A DNA stretch of 64,000 bases. Source: Actinomycetota bacterium (lineage in GTDB: Bacteria > Actinomycetota > Thermoleophilia > Solirubrobacterales > 70-9). The position numbers and the translations under genes are program-made. The DNA lies in contig JAFDWO010000037.1 in assembly GCA_018268415.1 (NCBI GenBank), forward strand, positions 1-64,000, read 5' to 3'. Position 1 is the first letter of the stretch. Each line of letters starts with the position of its first letter. Under the pieces are notes generated by a model. It made no database searches and was not told the origin of the DNA. It was given only the letters and a program-made list of their open reading frames with translations. Shown in pieces: positions 8,987-56,276 of the stretch.

Positions 8987-9088
8987 TTGATTCCACGGGC
9001 CTTGTGCCCGGGGAGGGATGGAACCTCCTGAAGCTGGCGCCCGGGAAGGGACGAGGCCCCCTGAAGCTGACGCCCGGGGAAAGGGACG

Positions 9089-9140
9089 CGGCCGTCTCGT
9101 CCACGGCCCTGGCAGGCTGTGGCCGTGGCCGAGACGGCCG
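9089..9140. repeat. Hairpin family B, copy 1
   Basis: Inverted repeat with 20-bp arms (9089-9108, 9121-9140; core GGCCGTCTCG and CCACGGCC) with one mismatch, enclosing the 12-nt loop CTGGCAGGCTGT, which is the reverse complement of the family A loop seen at 88-99. Confidence 0.88.
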
Positions 9141-9272
9141 AGGGTGCGGGCGGTGGAGGAAGGCTCGCGGGAGGCTCAGGAGAGCGTCATGGATGTGTGG
9201 CCGAAGTCCAACCTCGTGAGGAAGACCGTGGGAAGTCCACGCTTCCTCCCGTGTTGCCCAACAGTCACGGAC

Positions 9273-9320
9273 GCGCTGCACGAGTTGACCGTGCCATAGG
9301 ACGGTCAACCCGTGCAGCGC
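9273..9320. repeat. Family D hairpin, variant stem
   Basis: Arms 9273-9292 and 9301-9320 pair over 20 bp with one mismatch and an 8-nt loop GCCATAGG. Flanks (GTGTTGCCCAACAGTCACGGAC on the left, GTTCTCGGGCCC on the right) match those of the D hairpin near 47.76 kb, but the stem sequence is different. Confidence 0.8.
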
Positions 9321-9353
9321 GTTCTCGGGCCCGCATCCCAGGCCCGCCCCACC

Positions 9354-9420
9354 GGTCAGGGATCTCCGTGGTTCGAAATGGGCGTATGGCGACCATTTGG
9401 AACCACGGAGATTCCTGACC
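9354..9420. repeat. Long hairpin with 28-bp arms
   Basis: Arms 9354-9381 and 9393-9420 are complementary at 26 of 28 positions (GGTCAGG, TCTCCGTGGTTC and AAATGG shared) around an 11-nt loop. I see no second copy of this stem in the window. Confidence 0.85.
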
Positions 9421-9514
9421 GTTCGGATCCTCATCTCCCTGACGGGACGATCACGGAAGTCCGACTCCCTCACATCCCTGTGCCGGCTCTTCACGCTTTT
9501 TCACGACCCCCTCA

Positions 9515-9574
9515 CGTCCCGGGCGCCTCATGGCGGTCACAGCCTGCCAGGACCGCCATGAGGCGCCCGGGACG
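9515..9574. repeat. Hairpin family A, copy 2
   Basis: 24-bp perfect arms (9515-9538, 9551-9574) with loop ACAGCCTGCCAG. The inner arm base differs from copy 1 on both sides together (GGCGGTC with GACCGCC instead of GGCGCTC with GAGCGCC), a compensatory change. Confidence 0.9.
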
Positions 9575-9637
9575 CATCTCGGACGGCCGCCGGGGGCCGC
9601 GGAGGACGGCCGTCCCTCTCCCAGCCCCCGCCCCCAT

Positions 9638-9686
9638 GTCGACGGGCCGAAAACCCGCCTATATGTCCGGTTTTCGGCCCATCAAC
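9638..9686. repeat. 49-bp palindrome family C, copy 1
   Basis: The element runs from GTCGACGGGCCG to CGGCCCATCAAC and is exactly 49 bp, like the other four copies. Arms GGGCCGAAAACC (9644-9655) and GGTTTTCGGCCC (9669-9680) pair. It ends 18 nt from the stop of the DUF4189 gene, where it could act as terminator. Confidence 0.85.
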
Positions 9687-24113: not shown

Positions 24114-24353
24114 AAGGGGCGGGACCGTCAAGGAAGGGACGGGTGTGGTTTGTGGCCCCCGCGGCCGTCCGAGTTTGCGGTGCGGGCGCGCGTGGCGGCG
24201 CGACCCCGACCCCTGCGGCCGTCCGAGTTGCCGCCCGACCCCGACCCCCGCACCCGTCCGAGATGCGGCGCGGGGCGCGTGGCCGCGCGACCCCGGCCCC
24301 ACACCCGTCCGAGCTGCCCCCCAACCCCGGCCCCCCACACCCGTCCGAGATGG

Positions 24354-24409
24354 TCCCGGGCGCCTCATGGCGCTCCTGGCAGGCTGTGAGCGCCATGAGG
24401 CGCCCGGGA
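24354..24409. repeat. Hairpin family A, copy 3
   Basis: 22-bp perfect arms (24354-24375, 24388-24409) with loop CTGGCAGGCTGT, the opposite orientation to copies 1 and 2. Confidence 0.9.
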
Positions 24410-24650
24410 CGGAGGGGGTCGTGGGGAAGGCGGGCACGGGGGCGGGAGGGGGTCGTGGGGAAGACGACACAGGGACGGGAGGGGGTCGTGAAAAAGACGG
24501 GACAGGGATTGGGGGGAGGTCGGACTTCCGTGACGGGTCGGTGCGGGATAGGCCACGCCCCGCCCCGATCGGTCACGAAGACGCCGGGAACGTCACCCTT
24601 TCCGCAACCTTCGGTCTCTTTTCGGGCCTGGAAGGAGGGCCCGGGAACGC

Positions 24651-24694
24651 GTTCCGTACTTTGACCCTGCCATGGCAGGGTCAAAGTACGGAAC
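24651..24694. repeat. Family D hairpin, copy 1
   Basis: 21-bp perfect arms (24651-24671, 24674-24694; GTTCCGTACTTTGACC core) with a 2-nt centre. The same stem occurs in inverse context at 47743-47786 with one mismatch. Confidence 0.88.
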
Positions 24695-24989
24695 GTGTCC
24701 GTGAGCGTTGGACAACACGGGAGGAGGCGTGGAGTTCCCTACGTCTCCGTGACGGGGTCCCTCCTCCGTGACGGTCCCGTGAGGGATCCGTCACACCTCC
24801 CGGCCCCCGGGGCCAGGATCGGGGGATCCGTGGGACCCTCCCGCCCCCGGACGCCGGGATCGGGGGGTCCTGGGACGCGCGTCACGGATCCGTGGGAGCG
24901 CCGTGTCCCTCGCGTGAGGGATCCGCCTCACTCGCCCGCACCCTCCCCCGGGGGCCCTCCGTGCTTCCCCCGCCCGCTCCCCGCACCCC

Positions 24990-25041
24990 CGGCCGTCTCG
25001 GCCACGGCCACAGCCTGCCAGGGCCGTGGACGAGACGGCCG
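24990..25041. repeat. Hairpin family B, copy 2
   Basis: 20-bp arms with one mismatch (24990-25009, 25022-25041) and loop ACAGCCTGCCAG, the same 12-mer as in family A. Confidence 0.88.
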
Positions 25042-25181
25042 CATCCCTCTCCGCCATGGGCGGCAGCTTGAGGGGGCCGGGGGCCTTCCCGGGCGGCAGC
25101 TTCCCCCAGGCTCCATCCCTCCCGGCGCCAACGCGGAAGGCCCCCACGCGAAGGGCCGGCCGCGCCCTGCGGACGGCTGCC

Positions 25182-31475: not shown

Positions 31476-31526
31476 GGTTGATGGGCCGGAAACTCAAGCT
31501 GAGCTTGAGTTTCCGGCCCATCAACC
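31476..31526. repeat. 49-bp palindrome family C, copy 2
   Basis: The 49-bp core 31477-31525 (GTTGATGGGCCGG to CCGGCCCATCAAC) is an almost loop-less palindrome with 25-bp arms extending to 31476-31526. It is 59 bp past the sdh operon end and could be its terminator. Confidence 0.9.
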
Positions 31527-31782
31527 GTGGCACCAGGCCAGCGCGGGATCCGAGGCGGCCCGCGACCCGCAGGCCGCATCCTCGGCCGGGCGTCCGAAGT
31601 GTGTCCTGGGACGGGAGACCGAGGGGACAAGCCGTCACACGGATAGGACAAAGTTCGACTTCCGTGAAGGTTTCGCCGGGGGTCGGATCCGGGACGTCGC
31701 CGTCGTGACGAAGACGCCGGGAACGTCACTCTTCGCGGCCTTCCGGGACCCGTTTCCGGCCCGGGATCCAGGAGCCCGAGAC

Positions 31783-31830
31783 GCGCGGTCGACCTTACCC
31801 ACCTAAAACGGGGGGTAAGGTCGACCGCGC
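31783..31830. repeat. Family D hairpin, third stem type
   Basis: 18-bp perfect arms GCGCGGTCGACCTTACCC (31783-31800) and complement (31813-31830) with a 12-nt loop. It occupies the D position of the block, but the stem is unrelated to D1. Confidence 0.85.
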
Positions 31831-31917
31831 GATCGCGACCCATGAGGAAGTCGGGAGGAACCGTGGAGTTCCCGGAGTCTTCCCGACGCGTCACGGACCC
31901 TCCACCGGTTTCATACC

Positions 31918-31947
31918 CGGCCGTCTCGGCCACGGCCACAGCCTGCC
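31918..31947. repeat. Truncated family B hairpin
   Basis: The left arm (31918-31937) and ten bases of the loop (ACAGCCTGCC) are present; the right arm is missing and the sequence changes to CGGGCAGTCACTGG. This marks a breakpoint inside the hairpin. Confidence 0.75.
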
Positions 31948-32075
31948 CGGGCAGTCACTGGTTATAAGAAACTGCGGGTTCTTTGGTCGGGAGTTTTTCG
32001 AACGCGAGATTGTGTTAATCCCGTGAACATTTGAAGCATTCTCGGCGCCTATCCCTCATACTTGACGCGCAGAGC

Positions 32076-32543
32076 ATGAGCCCCGCGGTCGAGCAGATTC
32101 GTAAGACGGTCGAAGAGCGGATTCGTGAGTTGCGGCCCGTGATCGACGAGCTGGAGCAGCTCCAGGGCATCCTCTCCCTCCTCGAAGGCGAGGAGGTCAC
32201 GCGCAAAGGCGAAGACGCCCCGTCCGACGGCCTCGCCGCCCTCCTGGCCCAGGCCGGCATCGACGCCGACGCGACCTCCCGCCAGCCGATTCGCCGCTCG
32301 CGCCGCGGTACCAAACCGGGCCGCGACGGCCGCGCCCCCCAGGGCGCCAACAAGCAGCTGATCATCGAAGCGGTGATGCAGGACCCCGGCGTCACCGCCA
32401 CCGAAATCGCCGAGCGCACCGGCGTCAAGCGCACCGTCGTCTCCGCGACGATCAACCGCCTCAAGCGCAACGGCGAGCTCGAGCCCCTCGGCCAAGGCGT
32501 CCGCGTCCCCAGCGGCCGCCGCCTCGCCGCCCTCGCCCAGTAG
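32076..32543 (+). CDS. Small coiled-coil/basic-linker/winged-helix protein, second copy of the plan
   Basis: The 155-residue protein begins with a coiled coil (5-40, VEQIRKTVEERIRELRPVID), has a middle segment with a basic linker RRSRRGTKPGRDGR (about 76-89), and ends in a winged helix (95-150) with VTATEIAERTGVKRTVVSATI. The plan matches the protein at 19474, though sequence identity is low. Either could be a nucleoid-associated or architectural regulator. ATG at 32076 is preferred to an in-frame TTG at 32031; neither has a clear ribosome site. It is flanked on both sides by composite repeat blocks. Confidence 0.8.
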   Translation: MSPAVEQIRKTVEERIRELRPVIDELEQLQGILSLLEGEEVTRKGEDAPSDGLAALLAQAGIDADATSRQPIRRSRRGTKPGRDGRAPQGANKQLIIEAVMQDPGVTATEIAERTGVKRTVVSATINRLKRNGELEPLGQGVRVPSGRRLAALAQ

Positions 32544-32706
32544 CCGCGACGTCCGCGAGCGGCCCGGCGGTTGATTGCGGGCGTGGCGCCCGTCCGAGGT
32601 GCGGCGCGGGGGCGCGTAGCGCCCCGGCCCCGGCCTCCCACCGTCCGAGATGACGCGCGGCGGCGCGTGGCGCCGCGACCCCGGCGCCCCGGACCCGTCC
32701 GAGTTG

Positions 32707-32766
32707 CGTCCCGGGCGCCTCATGGCGGTCCTGGCAGGCTGTGACCGCCATGAGGCGCCCGGGACG
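32707..32766. repeat. Hairpin family A, copy 4
   Basis: 24-bp perfect arms (32707-32730, 32743-32766) with loop CTGGCAGGCTGT; the inner bases are the GGCGGTC/GACCGCC variant also seen in copy 2. Confidence 0.9.
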
Positions 32767-33056
32767 GGAGGGGGTCGTGGGGAGGGCGGGTACAGGGACG
32801 GGAGGGGTTCGTAGGGAAGAGAGCACAGGGATGTGAGGGGGTCGTGGGGAGGCGGGCACGGGGACGGGAGGGGGTCGTGAAAAAGACGACACAGGGATGA
32901 GGGGAGACACAGGGACGTCACGAAGTAGGACCTCCGTGACGGGTCCGTGCGGGAGGGGCCACACCCCGCCCCGATCGGTGACGAGGATGCCGGGAACGTC
33001 ACATTCTCGGGAGCCTTCGGTCTCTTTCCGGGCCTGGATCGGAGGGTCGAATACAC

Positions 33057-33100
33057 GCTGCGTGTTTTGACCCCCCTATACGGTGGAAAACCCACGCAGC
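33057..33100. repeat. Family D position, decayed hairpin
   Basis: GCTGCGTGTTTTGACC (33057-33072) faces GGTGGAAAACCCACGCAGC (33082-33100): the outer GCTGCGTG pairs, the inner part only with bulges. Flanks match the other D sites. Confidence 0.6.
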
Positions 33101-33245
33101 GCGTCCGTGACGGTTGGACAACACGGGAGGAGGCGTCTGGTTCCCTACGTCTTCGTGACGGGGTCGCTCCTCCGTGATGGATCCGTCACGGATCCGTGGC
33201 GCTCCCGTGGGTTTCCCGTGGGCCTTCCTCCACCGCTTTCATACC

Positions 33246-33297
33246 CGGCCGTCTCGGCCACGGCCACAGCCTGCCAGGGCCGTGGACGAGACGGCCG
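33246..33297. repeat. Hairpin family B, copy 4
   Basis: 20-bp arms with one mismatch (33246-33265, 33278-33297) and loop ACAGCCTGCCAG. Confidence 0.88.
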
Positions 33298-33511
33298 CAT
33301 CCCTTGTCGCCACAGGCGCCAGCTCGAGGGGGTCGGGGGCCTTCGCCCACGGGCGACAGCCTGGGAAGGCCGCGGATCTGAGCGGGCGCCAGCCCGCGGG
33401 GTCCACCTGCCTTTCCCGCGGGCGGCAGCTTCAAGAGGTCCCATCCCTTCCCGGGCGACAGCTCGAGGGGGCCGGGCCCTTCCCCCCGGCGCCACCGGCC
33501 GCGCCACACCG

Positions 33512-33560
33512 GTTGATGGGCCGAAAACTCAACTATGTCTTGGGTTTTCGGCCCATCAAC
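33512..33560. repeat. 49-bp palindrome family C, copy 3
   Basis: From GTTGATGGGCCG to CGGCCCATCAAC, exactly 49 bp, arms of about 20 bp with small central differences. Confidence 0.88.
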
Positions 33561-45257: not shown

Positions 45258-45290
45258 GGCGCGGGGCCTTCGGGCTCCGCGCCGTTTTGT
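45258..45290 (+). terminator. Intrinsic terminator after pstS
   Basis: GGCGCGGGGCC (45258-45268), loop TTCG, GGCTCCGCGCC (45273-45283), then GTTTTGTT. It lies 40 nt after the pstS stop and directly abuts palindrome C4. Confidence 0.85.
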
Positions 45291-45337
45291 TGGTGGGCCG
45301 AAAACTCAAGCATGGCTTGAGTTTTCGGCCCACCAAC
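45289..45337. repeat. 49-bp palindrome family C, copy 4
   Basis: From GTTGGTGGGCCG to CGGCCCACCAAC, exactly 49 bp, with 22-bp arms (45290-45311, 45315-45336) around ATG. It lies between the convergent pstS and MerR-like genes. The outer arm differs from copies 2 and 3 by paired changes (GTTGGTG/CACCAAC for GTTGATG/CATCAAC). Confidence 0.9.
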
Positions 45338-47285: not shown

Positions 47286-47545
47286 ACGCGGAGGGGCGCT
47301 GCGGGCCGGCACCCCCGAAGGGATGAGGCCTGGGAAAGCTGATGCCCGAAAAGGGATGAGGCCTCGAGAAGCTGCCGCCCGTGGGGAAGGGGCCCCGGCC
47401 CCCGCAGGCTGTCGCCCGTGAGGGAAGGGGATGCGGGGCCCCTGAAGCTGTCGCCCGCCGGGGAAGGGGATGCGGCCCCCTCGAGCTGTCGCCCGTGGAC
47501 GAAAGGCCCCGACCCCTCGAGCTGTCGCCCGGAGGGAAAGGGATG

Positions 47546-47597
47546 CGGCCGTCTCGTCCACGGCCCTGGCAGGCTGTGGCCGTGGCCGAGACGGCCG
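47546..47597. repeat. Hairpin family B, copy 5
   Basis: 20-bp arms (47546-47565, 47578-47597) with one mismatch and loop CTGGCAGGCTGT. Confidence 0.88.
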
Positions 47598-47742
47598 GGT
47601 ATGAAAGCGGTGGAGGAAGGCCCACGGGAAACCCACGGGAGCACCACTGATCCGTGACGGGACCGTCACGGAAGGGAGACCCCGTCACGGAGACGTAGGG
47701 AACTCCACGCCTCCTCCCGTGTTGTCCAACCGTCACGGACAC

Positions 47743-47786
47743 GTTCCGTACTTTGACCCTGCCATGGCATGGTCAAAGTACGGAAC
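47743..47786. repeat. Family D hairpin, copy 2
   Basis: 21-bp arms (47743-47763, 47766-47786) with one mismatch; same stem as at 24651 but the flanking segments are in reverse order, so the block is inverted. Confidence 0.88.
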
Positions 47787-48022
47787 GCGTTCCCGGGCCC
47801 TCTTTTCCGGCCCGGGAACGGACCGAAGGTTGCGGAAAGGGTGACGTTCCCGGCGTCTTCGTGACCGATCGGGGTGGGGTGTGGCCCCTCCCGCACGGAC
47901 CCGTCACGGAAGTCCTACCTCGTGCCATCCCTGTCCCGCCTTTTTCATGACCCCTCCCGTCCCTGCCTCTCCCCTCGTCCCTGTGTCGTCTTTTTCACGA
48001 CCCCCTCCCCACGACCCCCTAC

Positions 48023-48082
48023 CGTCCCGGGCGCCTCATGGCGCTCACAGCCTGCCAGGAGCGCCATGAGGCGCCCGGGACG
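48023..48082. repeat. Hairpin family A, copy 5
   Basis: 24-bp perfect arms (48023-48046, 48059-48082) with loop ACAGCCTGCCAG; identical to copy 1. Confidence 0.9.
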
Positions 48083-48248
48083 CATCTCGGACGGGTGCGG
48101 GGGTCGGGGTCGGGGGCCACGCTCGCCCGGGACGCACCTCGGACGGGTGTGCGGCCCGGGGTCGGGCCTCCACGCACCCCGGGCCGCACCTCGGACGGCC
48201 GCGGTGGTCGGGGTCGCGCGGCAACTCGGACGGGTGCGGGCCGCGGGT

Positions 48249-49283: not shown

Positions 49284-51338
49284 CTAACTGACCTCCTCCG
49301 CGTCGAACTCGCTCTTCAGCCGATCCAGCAACTCATCCTCGTCGATCCGGTCGCTGCCCGGCGCCGGGGTGTCGGGGGGTGGCGGCGCGGCGGCCGCGGC
49401 CTCCTCGTCAAGCATCAGGTAGCGCGGCGCGACCCCTTCTCCGGTGACCGCTTCGAATGCCTCGATCAGCGCCTGTCGACGATCGGGCGACTCCGCCTTG
49501 CGTTTGTTGAAGGGCTGGTCGGGCTGGAAGCCGATCGCCAGCCCCTCGTCGTCGAAGGCCACCGGGCGCGCCCCGTCGAAGGTCGCCGCCAGGGCGGGCG
49601 CCTTCTCGGCGAGCTTGTCGAGGACCGAGGGCCAGATGCGGATCACCTGGGCCAGGTCCTGGGCCTCCGCGGGTGACGGTGACGGAGGAGCGCCGGCCGC
49701 GGGCCCCATGGCGCCGGCCTCCTCCTCCGGCGCGCCACCCCCGGCAGGTGCATCTGCGGGCACGGCGGCGGTCCCCGGCGCCTGCGGCTGGGCCGCGGAG
49801 GCTTGGGCGGGAGCGGACTCGGGCGCCTGCCGCTGCGGCTCGGGCGGCTGAGTGGCAGCGGGATCGGGAGCCTCCGATCCTCGGGCGGGCGGCTGGGCGG
49901 CGGCGGGATCGGGAGCGCGCAGCTCTGTCCCGGACGGCTGGGCGGCAGCGGGCTCCGCAGCCTCCGATCTCGGGGCGGGCGGCTGGGCGGCGGCGGGATC
50001 GGGACTCGCCGATCCTCGGGCGGGCGACGAGACGGCGGCGGGATCGGGCGACTGGATCGCGGAGTGCTCCGGCGCGGACGCCTGCGGTTCGGGCGGCGAC
50101 GGATGGGGCGTCGTCGGGGTGGGCTCGGGCGGGCGGCTCGGGGCCGGCGGCGGCAGGATCGGGGTCGGCGGGGGCCCGCCGCCCGCCAACTGCTCTTCGA
50201 GCTTCTCGATCCGGCGCAGCAGGCCCTCGGTAGTCGGGTCGAGGTCGGGGCGGGCGGCTTTCAGCAGCGCGATCTCGACCGCCATGCGAGCGTCGTCTCC
50301 CTCGCGGACCGCGGTCAGGGCCGCGGCCAGCTCGTCGATCGTGCGAACCAGGGTGGCGGCACCGACGGCGCTCGCCTGTCGGGAGATCCGCTGCGTGTCC
50401 GTTGCGGTCACGACGAAGGTCGTCGGCACCTCACCCGTCGTCTGGGTGACCAACAGGTGGCGCAGGTGAGCGAGCAGATCGCGCGCGAACTGGGACGGAT
50501 CACGTCCCGATTGCGCCATCTTCTCGACTCCGAGAAGGACTGCCTTCGGGTCGGAGGCGACCACCGCGTCGACCGCTTCGAAGAGCAAGTCGGCGTCGGC
50601 CGCACCGAGCATCTCCAGCACGTCGGCGAGCCCGACCGTCTCGCCACCGAAGGCGACCAGCTGGTCAAGCGTCCCGAGAGCGTCACGGAAGCTGCCCTGG
50701 GCGGAGCGGGCGATCATCGCCACCGCCCCGTCCTCGACCTGGATCGACTCCTGCGCGGCCACCCGGTTCAGCACCTCGGAGATCTGCTCGAGGCTCGGCC
50801 GCTGGAAGTCGAAGCGCTGGCAGCGGTCTGCGATCGTCGCCATCACCTTGTGCGACTCGGTGGTGGCGAGGACGAAGACGGTGCGCGGCGGCGGCTCCTC
50901 CAGCGTCTTCAGGAACGCGTTCCATGCCTCTTTCGTGAGCATGTGCGCCTCATCGAGGATGTAGACCTTCCAGTGGCCGCCGGCGGGCGCGTAGGCGACC
51001 CGCTCGCGCAGATCGCGAACGTCGTCGACCGAGCGGTTCGAGGCGGCATCCATCTCGATCACGTCGATCGAGGTCCCCGCCGCGATCGTCACGCACGATT
51101 GGCATTCGCCGCACGGCGTCACCGTCGGACCGCCCCGTTCGCAGTTCAGCGAGCGAGCAAGGATCTTCGCCATCGACGTCTTGCCGGTCCCGCGCGAGCC
51201 GACGAACAGGTACGCGTGGTGGACCTTGTCCCGCTCGACCGCGTTGCGCAGCGTGCGGACGACGTGGGTCTGCCCGACCACCTCGTCGAAGGATCCGGGG
51301 CGGTGGCGGCGGTAAAGGGACGTGGACTCGGTGCTCAT
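49284..51338 (-). CDS. dnaX: DNA polymerase III subunit gamma/tau
   Basis: The 684-residue clamp-loader ATPase has Walker A GSRGTGKTS (48-56), zinc Cys66, Cys76, Cys79 and Cys82, DEAH-type DEAHMLT and the SRC-like sensor motifs. Residues about 395-575 are a Pro/Ala/Gln-rich linker made of imperfect PDPAAAQPPARGSEA-type repeats, followed by the C-terminal tau-like domain (RIWPSVLDKLAEKAPALAATF). The start ATG at 51338 gives the family N-terminus YRRHRPGSFDEVVGQ. No slippery sequence for a gamma product was identified. Confidence 0.97.
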   Translation of the reverse strand: MSTESTSLYRRHRPGSFDEVVGQTHVVRTLRNAVERDKVHHAYLFVGSRGTGKTSMAKILARSLNCERGGPTVTPCGECQSCVTIAAGTSIDVIEMDAASNRSVDDVRDLRERVAYAPAGGHWKVYILDEAHMLTKEAWNAFLKTLEEPPPRTVFVLATTESHKVMATIADRCQRFDFQRPSLEQISEVLNRVAAQESIQVEDGAVAMIARSAQGSFRDALGTLDQLVAFGGETVGLADVLEMLGAADADLLFEAVDAVVASDPKAVLLGVEKMAQSGRDPSQFARDLLAHLRHLLVTQTTGEVPTTFVVTATDTQRISRQASAVGAATLVRTIDELAAALTAVREGDDARMAVEIALLKAARPDLDPTTEGLLRRIEKLEEQLAGGGPPPTPILPPPAPSRPPEPTPTTPHPSPPEPQASAPEHSAIQSPDPAAVSSPARGSASPDPAAAQPPAPRSEAAEPAAAQPSGTELRAPDPAAAQPPARGSEAPDPAATQPPEPQRQAPESAPAQASAAQPQAPGTAAVPADAPAGGGAPEEEAGAMGPAAGAPPSPSPAEAQDLAQVIRIWPSVLDKLAEKAPALAATFDGARPVAFDDEGLAIGFQPDQPFNKRKAESPDRRQALIEAFEAVTGEGVAPRYLMLDEEAAAAAPPPPDTPAPGSDRIDEDELLDRLKSEFDAEEVS

Positions 51339-51408
51339 AAAGGGCGTCCAGCCAGTGTATCCACGCCTCGCGGGGCGGCCTTCAGGCCCGCTCGGTAGGT
51401 TGCCCGCC

Positions 51409-52992
51409 GTGCCACCGAGGCTCTCCAGATGGCTCGTCCCCGCCGCCTGGGTGGCCGGGGTCACCGCCGTCCTCCTGCTGATCTTCCCGGTCGGCTTCCC
51501 CAATTACGACACGATCTACGCACTTGTCTGGGGACGGGAACTGGCGCACGGGATCAGCCCCGACTACGGCGCGGCGCTGCCCCCCACGCCGCATCCGCTG
51601 ACCGACTTCATCGGCCTGGTCGCCTCGCCGTTCGGGGAAGCGCCGATCACCGTGATCATGGTCCTCGCCTACGCCTCGCTGGGACTGATCGCGTACTTCG
51701 TCTACAGACTGGGCACGGTCTGGTTCGACAAATGGGTCGGCATCCTCGCCGCGGTGATCGTCCTCACCCGGGCGCCCTTCCTCTCCAACGGCCTGCGCGC
51801 CTACGTCGACCTCCCCTACATCGCCCTCTGCCTCGGCGCCCTTTACATCGAGGCGCGAAAGCCCCGGGCAGGATGGCCGGTCCTCGCCCTCCTCATCCCG
51901 GCGGGCCTCCTGCGCCCCGAGGCCTGGGGCTTCGCGATCGTCTACTGGTTGTGGCTGGCGTTCGACGTCCGGCGTGCACATCCCGACACAGGCTCACCGT
52001 CGACGGGCCGAAAGCTCAAGCATGACTTGAGTTTTCGGCCCACCAACACGGGGTTCCGACGGATCTGGGACGCCTTTGGGTGGGAAATCGGATGGCGTGG
52101 CGAGCGTGGGACGGCCGAGCTCGCCTGGCTCGGGCTGTTGGCGCTCGGCGGGCTGATCATCTGGGTGCTCTTCGACGCGATCACCACCGGCAACCCGCTC
52201 TACTCGCTGACCGGCACGCAGGAAACCGTCGAAAGCCTCAAACGGCAGACGGGGCCGGTCGACCTCGTCCTCTACGGGCCGCGCCGGCTCGGCGAAGTAA
52301 TGCAGTGGCCGGGGATGATCGGCGGCTTCGGCGGCCTCGTACTCGGCATCTGCCTGCTGCGCCGCCGCTCCGCGCTCGGCTTCGCCGCCGTCGTCCTCGC
52401 CCTACTCGGCTTCGCCTTCCTCGCCGCGGCGGGCCTGGCGATCATCGCCCGCTACACGATGCTGGCAGGCGCGATCCTCTCGATCTTCTTCGCCCTCGCC
52501 CTGCTCGGCTGGCGCTTCATCGACCGCGGCAACCCGTGGCGCCGCCGCTGGCAGATCTTCGCCGGGATCGTCCTCGCCATGGTCCTGATCTGGCTCCCGA
52601 ACCAGTGGAACCTCGACCGCCAGGTCCACACCGACCTCACCAACCAGGGCAAGATCGAGAACGACCTCTCCGCCCTGGTCGACGAAGGCGCCTTCTCGCC
52701 GGACTGCGGGCCGATCGCGGTGCCGAACCACCGCGCCGTGCCGCGCCTCGCCTTCGGCCTCGACGTCCGGCCCACCGACATCGTCAGCGCCAGCGAGGCG
52801 GTGTCAGGCGAAGAAAAGGAAAAGCTCGCCGAAATCGGCTACTTCGTCGAACCCGCAAGCCCGTTCGTGATCCACAACTACATCCTCGACCCGAACGACA
52901 AGACGAAGTTCAAGAACCTGCACCCGCCCGAAGGCTTCCACGAGGTCGCCCGCAACGACAGCTGGGTCGTCTACAGCCGCTGCGGGGGTTGA
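51409..52992 (+). CDS. Polytopic membrane protein, glycosyltransferase-like, with palindrome-derived insert
   Basis: The 527-residue protein has about ten membrane helices and an extracytoplasmic C-terminal domain. The first loop (FPNYDTIYALVWGRELAHGISPDYG) resembles GT39/ArnT-type polyprenol-sugar transferases, but I cannot name the family with certainty. A 49-bp copy of palindrome C lies inside the frame at 51999-52047 and encodes the loop segment STGRKLKHDLSFRPTN (about residues 198-213) between two membrane helices. The frame stays open through it. The start is the GTG at 51409; the upstream frame overlaps the dnaX start. It is divergent from dnaX. Confidence 0.8.
   Translation: MPPRLSRWLVPAAWVAGVTAVLLLIFPVGFPNYDTIYALVWGRELAHGISPDYGAALPPTPHPLTDFIGLVASPFGEAPITVIMVLAYASLGLIAYFVYRLGTVWFDKWVGILAAVIVLTRAPFLSNGLRAYVDLPYIALCLGALYIEARKPRAGWPVLALLIPAGLLRPEAWGFAIVYWLWLAFDVRRAHPDTGSPSTGRKLKHDLSFRPTNTGFRRIWDAFGWEIGWRGERGTAELAWLGLLALGGLIIWVLFDAITTGNPLYSLTGTQETVESLKRQTGPVDLVLYGPRRLGEVMQWPGMIGGFGGLVLGICLLRRRSALGFAAVVLALLGFAFLAAAGLAIIARYTMLAGAILSIFFALALLGWRFIDRGNPWRRRWQIFAGIVLAMVLIWLPNQWNLDRQVHTDLTNQGKIENDLSALVDEGAFSPDCGPIAVPNHRAVPRLAFGLDVRPTDIVSASEAVSGEEKEKLAEIGYFVEPASPFVIHNYILDPNDKTKFKNLHPPEGFHEVARNDSWVVYSRCGG
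51999..52047. repeat. 49-bp palindrome family C, copy 5, inside a coding region
   Basis: From GTCGACGGGCCG to CGGCCCACCAAC, 49 bp. Arms GGGCCGAAAGCTCAAG and CTTGAGTTTTCGGCCC pair with one G-T type difference. Translated in frame with the membrane protein gene. It is the only copy within a gene in this window. Confidence 0.9.
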
Positions 52993-54066: not shown

Positions 54067-54162
54067 CCGCGGCAGTCTGCCGGCAGGGGTGAAAAAGTGG
54101 ACCGTGCACCCGCCTTCGAAATCTGGTCACCGGGCGTGTCCGTCGTTTATGGCTCGGGTCGG

Positions 54163-54250
54163 GCTTCCCTGCGGCACCCGCGGCATCCGCTTAAGGCTGC
54201 TTCCTTCCGGACCTGACCTGGTTCGCGTGCCCACGTCGCGCAGGACCCGG
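54163..54250 (-). ncRNA. ffs: Bacterial signal recognition particle RNA (4.5S, small type)
   Basis: On the minus strand the conserved SRP core is present: ACCAGGTCAGGTCCGGAAGG followed by AAGCAGCC (54196-54222), the GGAA tetraloop region that binds Ffh. Outer stems pair GGGCAC with GTGCC and CCTGCG with CGCAGG. The exact ends are estimated from pairing. The RNA guides membrane proteins with Ffh. In many Gram-positives this gene is found next to dnaX-ybaB-recR, as here within 3 kb on the same strand. Confidence 0.9.
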
Positions 54251-54406
54251 CCGTCAACGCCGCCGCGACGCACTGACCCCGACGGTCAGTCCCTCGGAAC
54301 GGTAGTCGGCCCCGCTAGAGCGGATTGCGGGTTATAGGGCACCGCTGATTCCCCGCCTAGCACGGTCCGTTGTCAAGCCTACCTTGCCGCCGCAGGATCG
54401 CGCCGC

Positions 54407-55933: not shown

Positions 55934-56005
55934 GGGCGCGTAGCTCAGTGGGAGAGCGCTCGCTTCACACGCGAGAGGTCGCTGGTTCGAAACCAGCCGT
56001 GCCCA
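55934..56005 (+). tRNA. tRNA-Val (CAC)
   Basis: Cloverleaf is complete: acceptor GGGCGCG/CGTGCCC, D-arm GCTCAGTGGGAGAGC, anticodon stem CTCGC/GCGAG with loop TTCACAC (anticodon CAC at 55966-55968), T-arm GCTGGTTCGAAACCAGC. Discriminator A at 56005; CCA is not encoded. Confidence 0.97.
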
Positions 56006-56124
56006 TGTCAGTAGACGGTTCGAGATGCGGAATCCCGTCCTTGCCGTGAGGCACCCGGCCGCCGGCTGATCCGCTCGCCTGTCGCCGGCGGTCGTCGATG
56101 GCCGCCCTATACTCACCGGCCACA

Positions 56125-56276
56125 AACCTGCCTAATCCCGTGCAGAGGCTGCCCGGGAGCGGGGGACCCAGAGGGCCTGACGGCCCAGGGGCGAATCGGG
56201 ACATCAGTGCCGTAGCGCGACTCTTTCAGCGCGAGCCCGCCAGCTAACCCCGCAGGCGTTCGGAAGAGAGGTCTCG
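56125..56276 (+). promoter_or_regulatory. Cyclic di-AMP (ydaO/yuaA) riboswitch
   Basis: Conserved elements appear in order: GGGGGACCCA, GGGGCGAATCGGG, CCCGCCAGCTAACCCCG, CAGGCG and the terminal GGAAGAGAGG. This is the ydaO-yuaA pattern that binds c-di-AMP. It ends directly before the start of an M23 peptidase gene, so its 3-prime GAGAGG probably contains or controls the ribosome site. The 5-prime boundary is approximate. Cell-wall hydrolase genes are the usual actinobacterial targets of this riboswitch. Confidence 0.92.

Follow-up and report, generated by a model that had tools for sequence, protein, structure and literature searches.

The 49-bp palindrome at 51999..52047 (plus strand) of the window, the 64,000-nucleotide stretch of DNA analyzed here, lies in frame within a membrane protein gene and probably belongs to a family of short, non-autonomous palindromic elements similar to Rickettsia palindromic elements (RPEs) and REPs, whose old sites were inherited and whose arms were later homogenized genome-wide. 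Our best reading is that the family is new, confined to one genus of Actinomycetota, and tolerated in the loops and linkers of proteins. Intracellular Rickettsia, with their reduced genomes, are the best-known hosts of in-frame palindromic repeats, and rarer cases have been reported from other bacteria. Here the same behavior is found in core enzymes of a GC-rich, probably free-living actinomycete lineage with a 4.7-Mb genome. Data from multiple species made it possible to trace the fate of the inserts, with site and frame inherited and the sequence swapped for the current subtype. Strain comparisons can now test whether such repeats supply new peptide segments to proteins and how hairpins remain paired while their sequences change.

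The host gene (51409..52992, plus strand) encodes a 527-amino-acid membrane protein that is conserved in the genus and the family. An ortholog was found in 34 of the 50 genomes of the family, and the gene start at 51409 agrees with the orthologs. The protein is not assigned to a family: no relative was found in Pfam, NCBIfam, or the PDB, and a search for a PDB template with a 17-sequence profile also found none. The first-pass annotation had placed the palindrome in a loop between membrane helices with the frame open on both sides, and the copy does encode STGRKLKHDLSFRPTN (amino acids 198-213) in an open frame, with hydrophobic segments on either side of the insert. The palindrome is present at the identical site and in the identical frame in G034, G035, G038, G040, and G042, and the orthologs in G033 and G036 have no insert. 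The ortholog in G037 (L091) has an unrelated inverted repeat, GCTGGTTCGAAACCAGC, at the palindrome loop. Relatives that have the loop peptide retain palindromic DNA with compensating changes, and relatives without the palindrome also lack the loop peptide, which is the reverse of the pattern that the first-pass annotation had named as a refutation.

That annotation had reported five 49-bp copies of this palindrome, and all five were recovered. Two lie in gaps between convergent gene pairs, one at 9638..9686 with arms of the CCGG...CATATAG subtype and the other at 45289..45337 with perfect CTCAAG arms and a strong right-hand tail. The copy at 31477..31525, with GGAAACTCAAG arms, is in the gap of a tandem gene pair. 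All four copies other than the one at 51999 had been called intergenic, a description that held for these three, but the copy at 33512..33560, which has a tail on its right, could not be classified by gene context. The core search pattern, GGGCCG-RAAR-N(14-26)-YTTY-CGGCCC, matched 5 times in the window and not at all in 100 dinucleotide-preserving shuffles. As RNA, the copy at 51999 was predicted to fold into a 16-bp stem (-29.5 kcal/mol; z, -7.4), with 18 of 24 pairs matching. An Rfam search with the palindrome found no match.

The variable length of this loop across the family is what might be expected of an ordinary variable loop, a gene-calling artifact, or a pseudogene in which a palindrome arose by coincidence. 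This explanation, which we consider vanishingly improbable, is refuted by the shuffle expectation of zero, by the five other species whose intact orthologs contain the palindrome, and by the coding signal on either side of the element. The gene remains intact throughout the genus, which disposes of the concern about a pseudogene raised in the first-pass annotation.

The palindrome is abundant in the genome that holds the window (G000; an uncultured actinomycete with a 4.74-Mb assembly of 160 contigs). The core pattern found 98 copies, and slightly wider arms found 100, versus no matches to a reversed control pattern in the same genome. The core was exactly 37 bp in every listed G000 site, even though the gap in the search was free to vary over 12 bases. 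Among the 12 genomes of the genus, all genomes compared being draft assemblies, 7 (G000, G032, G035, G037, G038, G040, and G042) have 33 to 100 copies, the six carrier species other than G000 having 33 to 86, and the remaining 5, including the copy-poor species G033, G036, G039, and G041, have 0 or 1. Elsewhere in the order (232 genomes) the palindrome was almost absent, with scattered sets of 1 to 3 matches, mostly of different sequence. Of the 86 copies in G032, most have the identical core GCGCTGATATAGAGCGC (for example, at L118, L129, and L145), which suggests a recent burst in that genome.

Genes were called with our own dicodon coding model, trained on long open reading frames. A genome-wide count of copies and their gene contexts, as the first-pass annotation had suggested, gave approximately 100 copies with approximately 15 in genes: 15 of the 98 G000 copies lie within coding segments with coding signal on both sides, and approximately 13 are interior, in-frame sites with ortholog support on both sides. 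The interrupted genes encode PurQ, NuoG, aminodeoxychorismate/anthranilate synthase (two copies), a DnaE2-like polymerase, PcaDC, an FAD-linked oxidase, a GntR-FCD regulator, glycosyltransferases, and membrane proteins. Copies are also found near the C termini of TsaD and a sugar nucleotidyltransferase. N-terminal copies in Tgt, NusB, and one glycosyltransferase may precede the true start and were excluded from the interior sites. PurQ, NuoG, PcaDC, PabB, and TsaD score above the NCBIfam curated cutoffs despite the insert. When PurQ is aligned with the solved protein 3d54, the insert falls in a variable loop. The peptides encoded by in-gene elements fall in loops, linkers, or termini of proteins. 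The in-gene copies of G037, G038, and G040 were all free of stop codons in the gene frame (18 of 18; the chance of this, estimated from each genome's own repeat pools, was 0.002). This avoidance of stops is indirect support, drawn from sequence, for the possibility that the inserts are translated.

Besides the window gene, 12 further gene sites, with orthologs selected from the G000 set, were compared. Eleven sites were common to G000 and at least one other species, and the codon phase was constant within every site (43 copies). The proteins of the relatives that share sites are approximately 73 to 86% identical, with identities of 82 to 86% for five relatives, and the species are roughly equidistant. 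Occupancy differs between relatives. The PurQ element is present in G000, G040, and G035 and absent from G042, G037, and G038; the NuoG element is absent from G042, G035, and G034; and the element at pabB site 1 is absent from G035. In the DnaE2-like gene one junction is conserved to the codon between species, and in G037 only the remnant GATGTTGATGGG is left, as expected after a deletion within the palindrome.

It is possible, though unlikely, that elements inserted independently at the same gene positions, through target-specific machinery or because a new element recognizes an old palindrome. The patchy occupancy of PurQ would fit such insertions, as would the DnaE2-like gene, in which G000 and G042 have a tail and CTCAAG-type arms and G040 and G038 have other arms and no tail. 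However, the frame was constant at all 11 shared sites, the DnaE2-like junction is conserved to the codon, and neither a target motif nor a target duplication was found. Furthermore, insertion into older palindromes converges on the explanation that we favor, inheritance of old sites followed by homogenization of their arms.

The arms themselves provided the evidence for homogenization. The in-gene 49-mers comprise 42 distinct sequences, in which 88% of the stem cells are paired, and changes on both sides were found in 13 of the 22 stem pairs, with covariation far above that of shuffles and slid controls. The inner 17 nucleotides of in-gene copies had a similarity of 0.73 across different genes of the same genome. 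Between genomes, the similarity at orthologous sites was 0.47, the same as for unrelated copies (0.47). None of 5,000 shuffles of genome labels within sites reached the observed difference, and the same was true when G000 was left out. Thus, the sites are inherited and their sequence follows the genome. Because the species are roughly equally distant from each other, saturation could explain the loss of similarity between orthologous sites but not the match to the subtype of the copy's own genome. The inner arms are particular to each species, being CTCAAG..CTTGAG in G000, of the GCGCTGATATAGAGCGC type noted above in G032, ATTTCGGG..CCCGAAAT in G035, and of several subtypes in G040, G038, G037, and G042. 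Hybrid copies, whose two arms are of different types, are found in G035 (for example, ATTTCGGG...CCCGTTTT) and in G000. It appears that in every species the element is rewritten in sequence at these shared sites, so that segments of ordinary proteins are edited by repetitive DNA.

The first-pass annotation had treated the palindrome as a 49-bp unit. The 49-bp length was borne out, but the feet of the copy at 51999 (GTCGAC/ACCAAC) are non-complementary, and most copies extend by a tail on one side. In an alignment of 97 copies, the two feet read R-T-GTTGAT and ATCAAC-A-Y, and only one of the sides continues into a conserved extension of approximately 24 to 30 nucleotides (consensus GGGGGTGTGACGGAAG, less conserved at its end). 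The tail scored above the 99.9th percentile of background in 71 of the 97 copies, and the element is approximately 75 bp long when the tail is counted. Across the seven species the hairpin has a fixed length of 49 to 53 bp, plus a one-sided tail of approximately 24 nucleotides. The window gene has 21 nucleotides more than its orthologs in G040 and G042, adjoining the palindrome. These extra nucleotides are probably the tail of the in-gene element (ACGGGGTTCCGACGGATCTGGGACGC; 52048..52073, plus strand), read in frame, although the assignment is borderline: the match at 52050-52073 is at the 99.96th percentile of the position weight matrix scores, but the opposite flank scores equally high. C-rich flanks like the G000 tail also adjoin palindromes in G032, G038, and G040 (L118, L123, L142, and L154), and therefore the tail seems to be an ancient component of the element. 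Tails are seen in some species at sites that have no tail in others, which argues that conversion of the stem alone is not the whole story.

The inserts are whole numbers of codons, but their net size varies; compared with G037, PurQ is longer by 72 nucleotides in G000 and by 36 nucleotides in G040. The first-pass annotation had reasoned that the insertion of 49 bp, which is not a multiple of three, must have been accompanied by a small duplication or deletion or by adjustment of neighboring sequence. Whole-codon inserts and the uneven gain and loss of flanking sequence, including the tail, agree with an adjustment of length, but a target duplication was not part of it: none was found beyond the element's own motif for any pair of boundaries in the 97 copies. 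The CGTGG/CGTGG pair at 31477, considered as a target duplication, is a single case only. The varied net sizes and the lack of flanking duplications indicate that length was adjusted case by case, in part by the tail. Alignment with orthologs, proposed in the same annotation as a way to locate the insert borders, did yield empty orthologs, but the in-gene orthologs are too diverged to give an exact empty-site border, and the genomes include no clean filled and empty pair of near-identical strains, so the insertion borders are located only approximately.

Intergenic copies in G000 lie mostly downstream of genes, with 37 in convergent, 32 in tandem, and 1 in divergent gaps; 13 further copies, beside a contig edge or inside a long gap, are unclassified. 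The nearest stop codon is a median of 14 bp away. As background, 12 of 31 intergenic gaps in the window are divergent, versus 1 of the 70 classified palindrome copies. Across the 97 copies in the alignment, the stem leads into ATCAAC and the G-rich tail instead of a T run, and thus the stem is not a classical intrinsic terminator.

This strong bias toward the 3' ends of genes, the fixed element length, and the compensating changes seen at 13 of the 22 stem pairs might reflect selection of the hairpin for a function of its own, as an RNA hairpin after stop codons or as the binding site of a DNA-binding protein, with species-specific arms that coevolve with the binding partner. We consider this improbable. 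The copies are in many unrelated genes but missing from the same PurQ, NuoG, and pabB genes in relatives, 5 of the 12 genus genomes have 0 or 1 copy, hybrids with only one arm changed persist, and the stem lacks the T run of a classical intrinsic terminator.

Under the favored explanation of inherited sites with homogenized arms, each shared gene site would have been occupied once, before the species split. Early in-gene insertions would have been tolerated because they were in frame, and old insertions may have persisted after stop codons and in the loops, linkers, and ends of proteins. The arms would since have been overwritten by the prevalent subtype of each genome, either through ectopic gene conversion or through newer elements reinserting into older palindromes, and pairing could have been restored by hairpin-templated (template-switch) repair. 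Template switching is a mutation mechanism that restores stem pairing in RNA genes (PMC8794818); in the present case its targets would be repeats within coding DNA. Selection on the host genes would purge versions with stop codons, and no benefit to the host protein would be required.

A Y1/RAYT transposase (PF01797) was found in none of the 12 genus genomes, in searches that did detect positive controls, and RAYT/Y1 was rejected as the mobilizer. REP-type mobilization is unlikely because of this lack of a Y1 transposase in the 12 genomes and because GTAG/CGTC tags are not beside the stem. A more speculative proposal, which we hold only tentatively, is that a transposase-free or yet unknown system overwrites palindromes genome-wide, with new hairpin subtypes taking the established places of older ones, also in genes. 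Within a genome, the loop peptides of unrelated enzymes would then change together rather than with the history of their own genes.

The first-pass annotation had noted a resemblance to RPEs. In-frame palindromic elements are known from Rickettsia (PMC10969869, PMC3733652), and the elements described here work alike: they are palindromic, dispersed, and in frame within unrelated genes, including housekeeping genes, at approximately 13 sites, with the frame open, the genes intact, and no known transposase. Inserts are likewise present or absent between related orthologs, as in PurQ, NuoG, pabB, and the window gene. However, membership in a Rickettsia family was not supported. RPEs are approximately 150 bp long (PMC10969869), in contrast to 49 bp plus a tail here; the host is an actinomycete and most copies are intergenic; no CGTC tag ends the stem; and the arms covary and are homogenized per genome at shared gene sites.

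The elements also resemble the REPs of REPIN-RAYT systems (PMC3733652, PMC3116915) in being short hairpins present in many copies beside the 3' ends of genes, and their placement is, like that of REPs, mostly extragenic and biased toward 3' ends. REPs have been reported inside genes of several bacteria, with DnaE2 among those genes, and in one case two Xanthomonas species have a REP at nearly the same position (PMC3733652). GTAG/CGTC tags characterize REPs and some RPEs (PMC3733652), but neither is at the stem here, and CCGTC is found only in the tail, approximately 12 nucleotides away. The absence of a Y1/RAYT transposase from the genus is a further difference from REPs. Like MITEs, the elements are small and non-autonomous with an inverted-repeat structure, but they have no target-site duplication, and each is one palindrome and not a pair of separated terminal repeats. 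No such family was reported for Actinomycetota in the literature searched, the coverage of which was partial. The new aspects are the lineage, the extent to which in-frame sites are shared, and the replacement of coding arms in a concerted manner.

A second palindromic repeat (GGCGCCTCATGGCGCTCACAGCCTGCCAGGAGCGCCATGAGGCGCC) is present in the window at 64-123, 9515-9574, 24353-24411, 32707-32765, and 48023-48082. It has 161 copies in G000, many of them near contig ends, 1 copy in G040, and none in ten other congeners, and is a species-specific explosion. Both kinds of palindrome are embedded in large dispersed intergenic repeats (9077-9602, 24189-25092, 31705-33348, and 47383-48247) of up to 276 nucleotides, which are 92% alike and found in both orientations. 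Tandem 45-bp repeats at 49763-50161 on the minus strand lie in the Pro/Ala-rich middle of a 739-amino-acid open reading frame (49284-51503) that looks like a dnaX (gamma/tau) gene. The window also contains a large bacterial SRP RNA (54102-54365, minus strand), a tRNA (55934-56005), and a c-di-AMP (ydaO) riboswitch (56119-56273).
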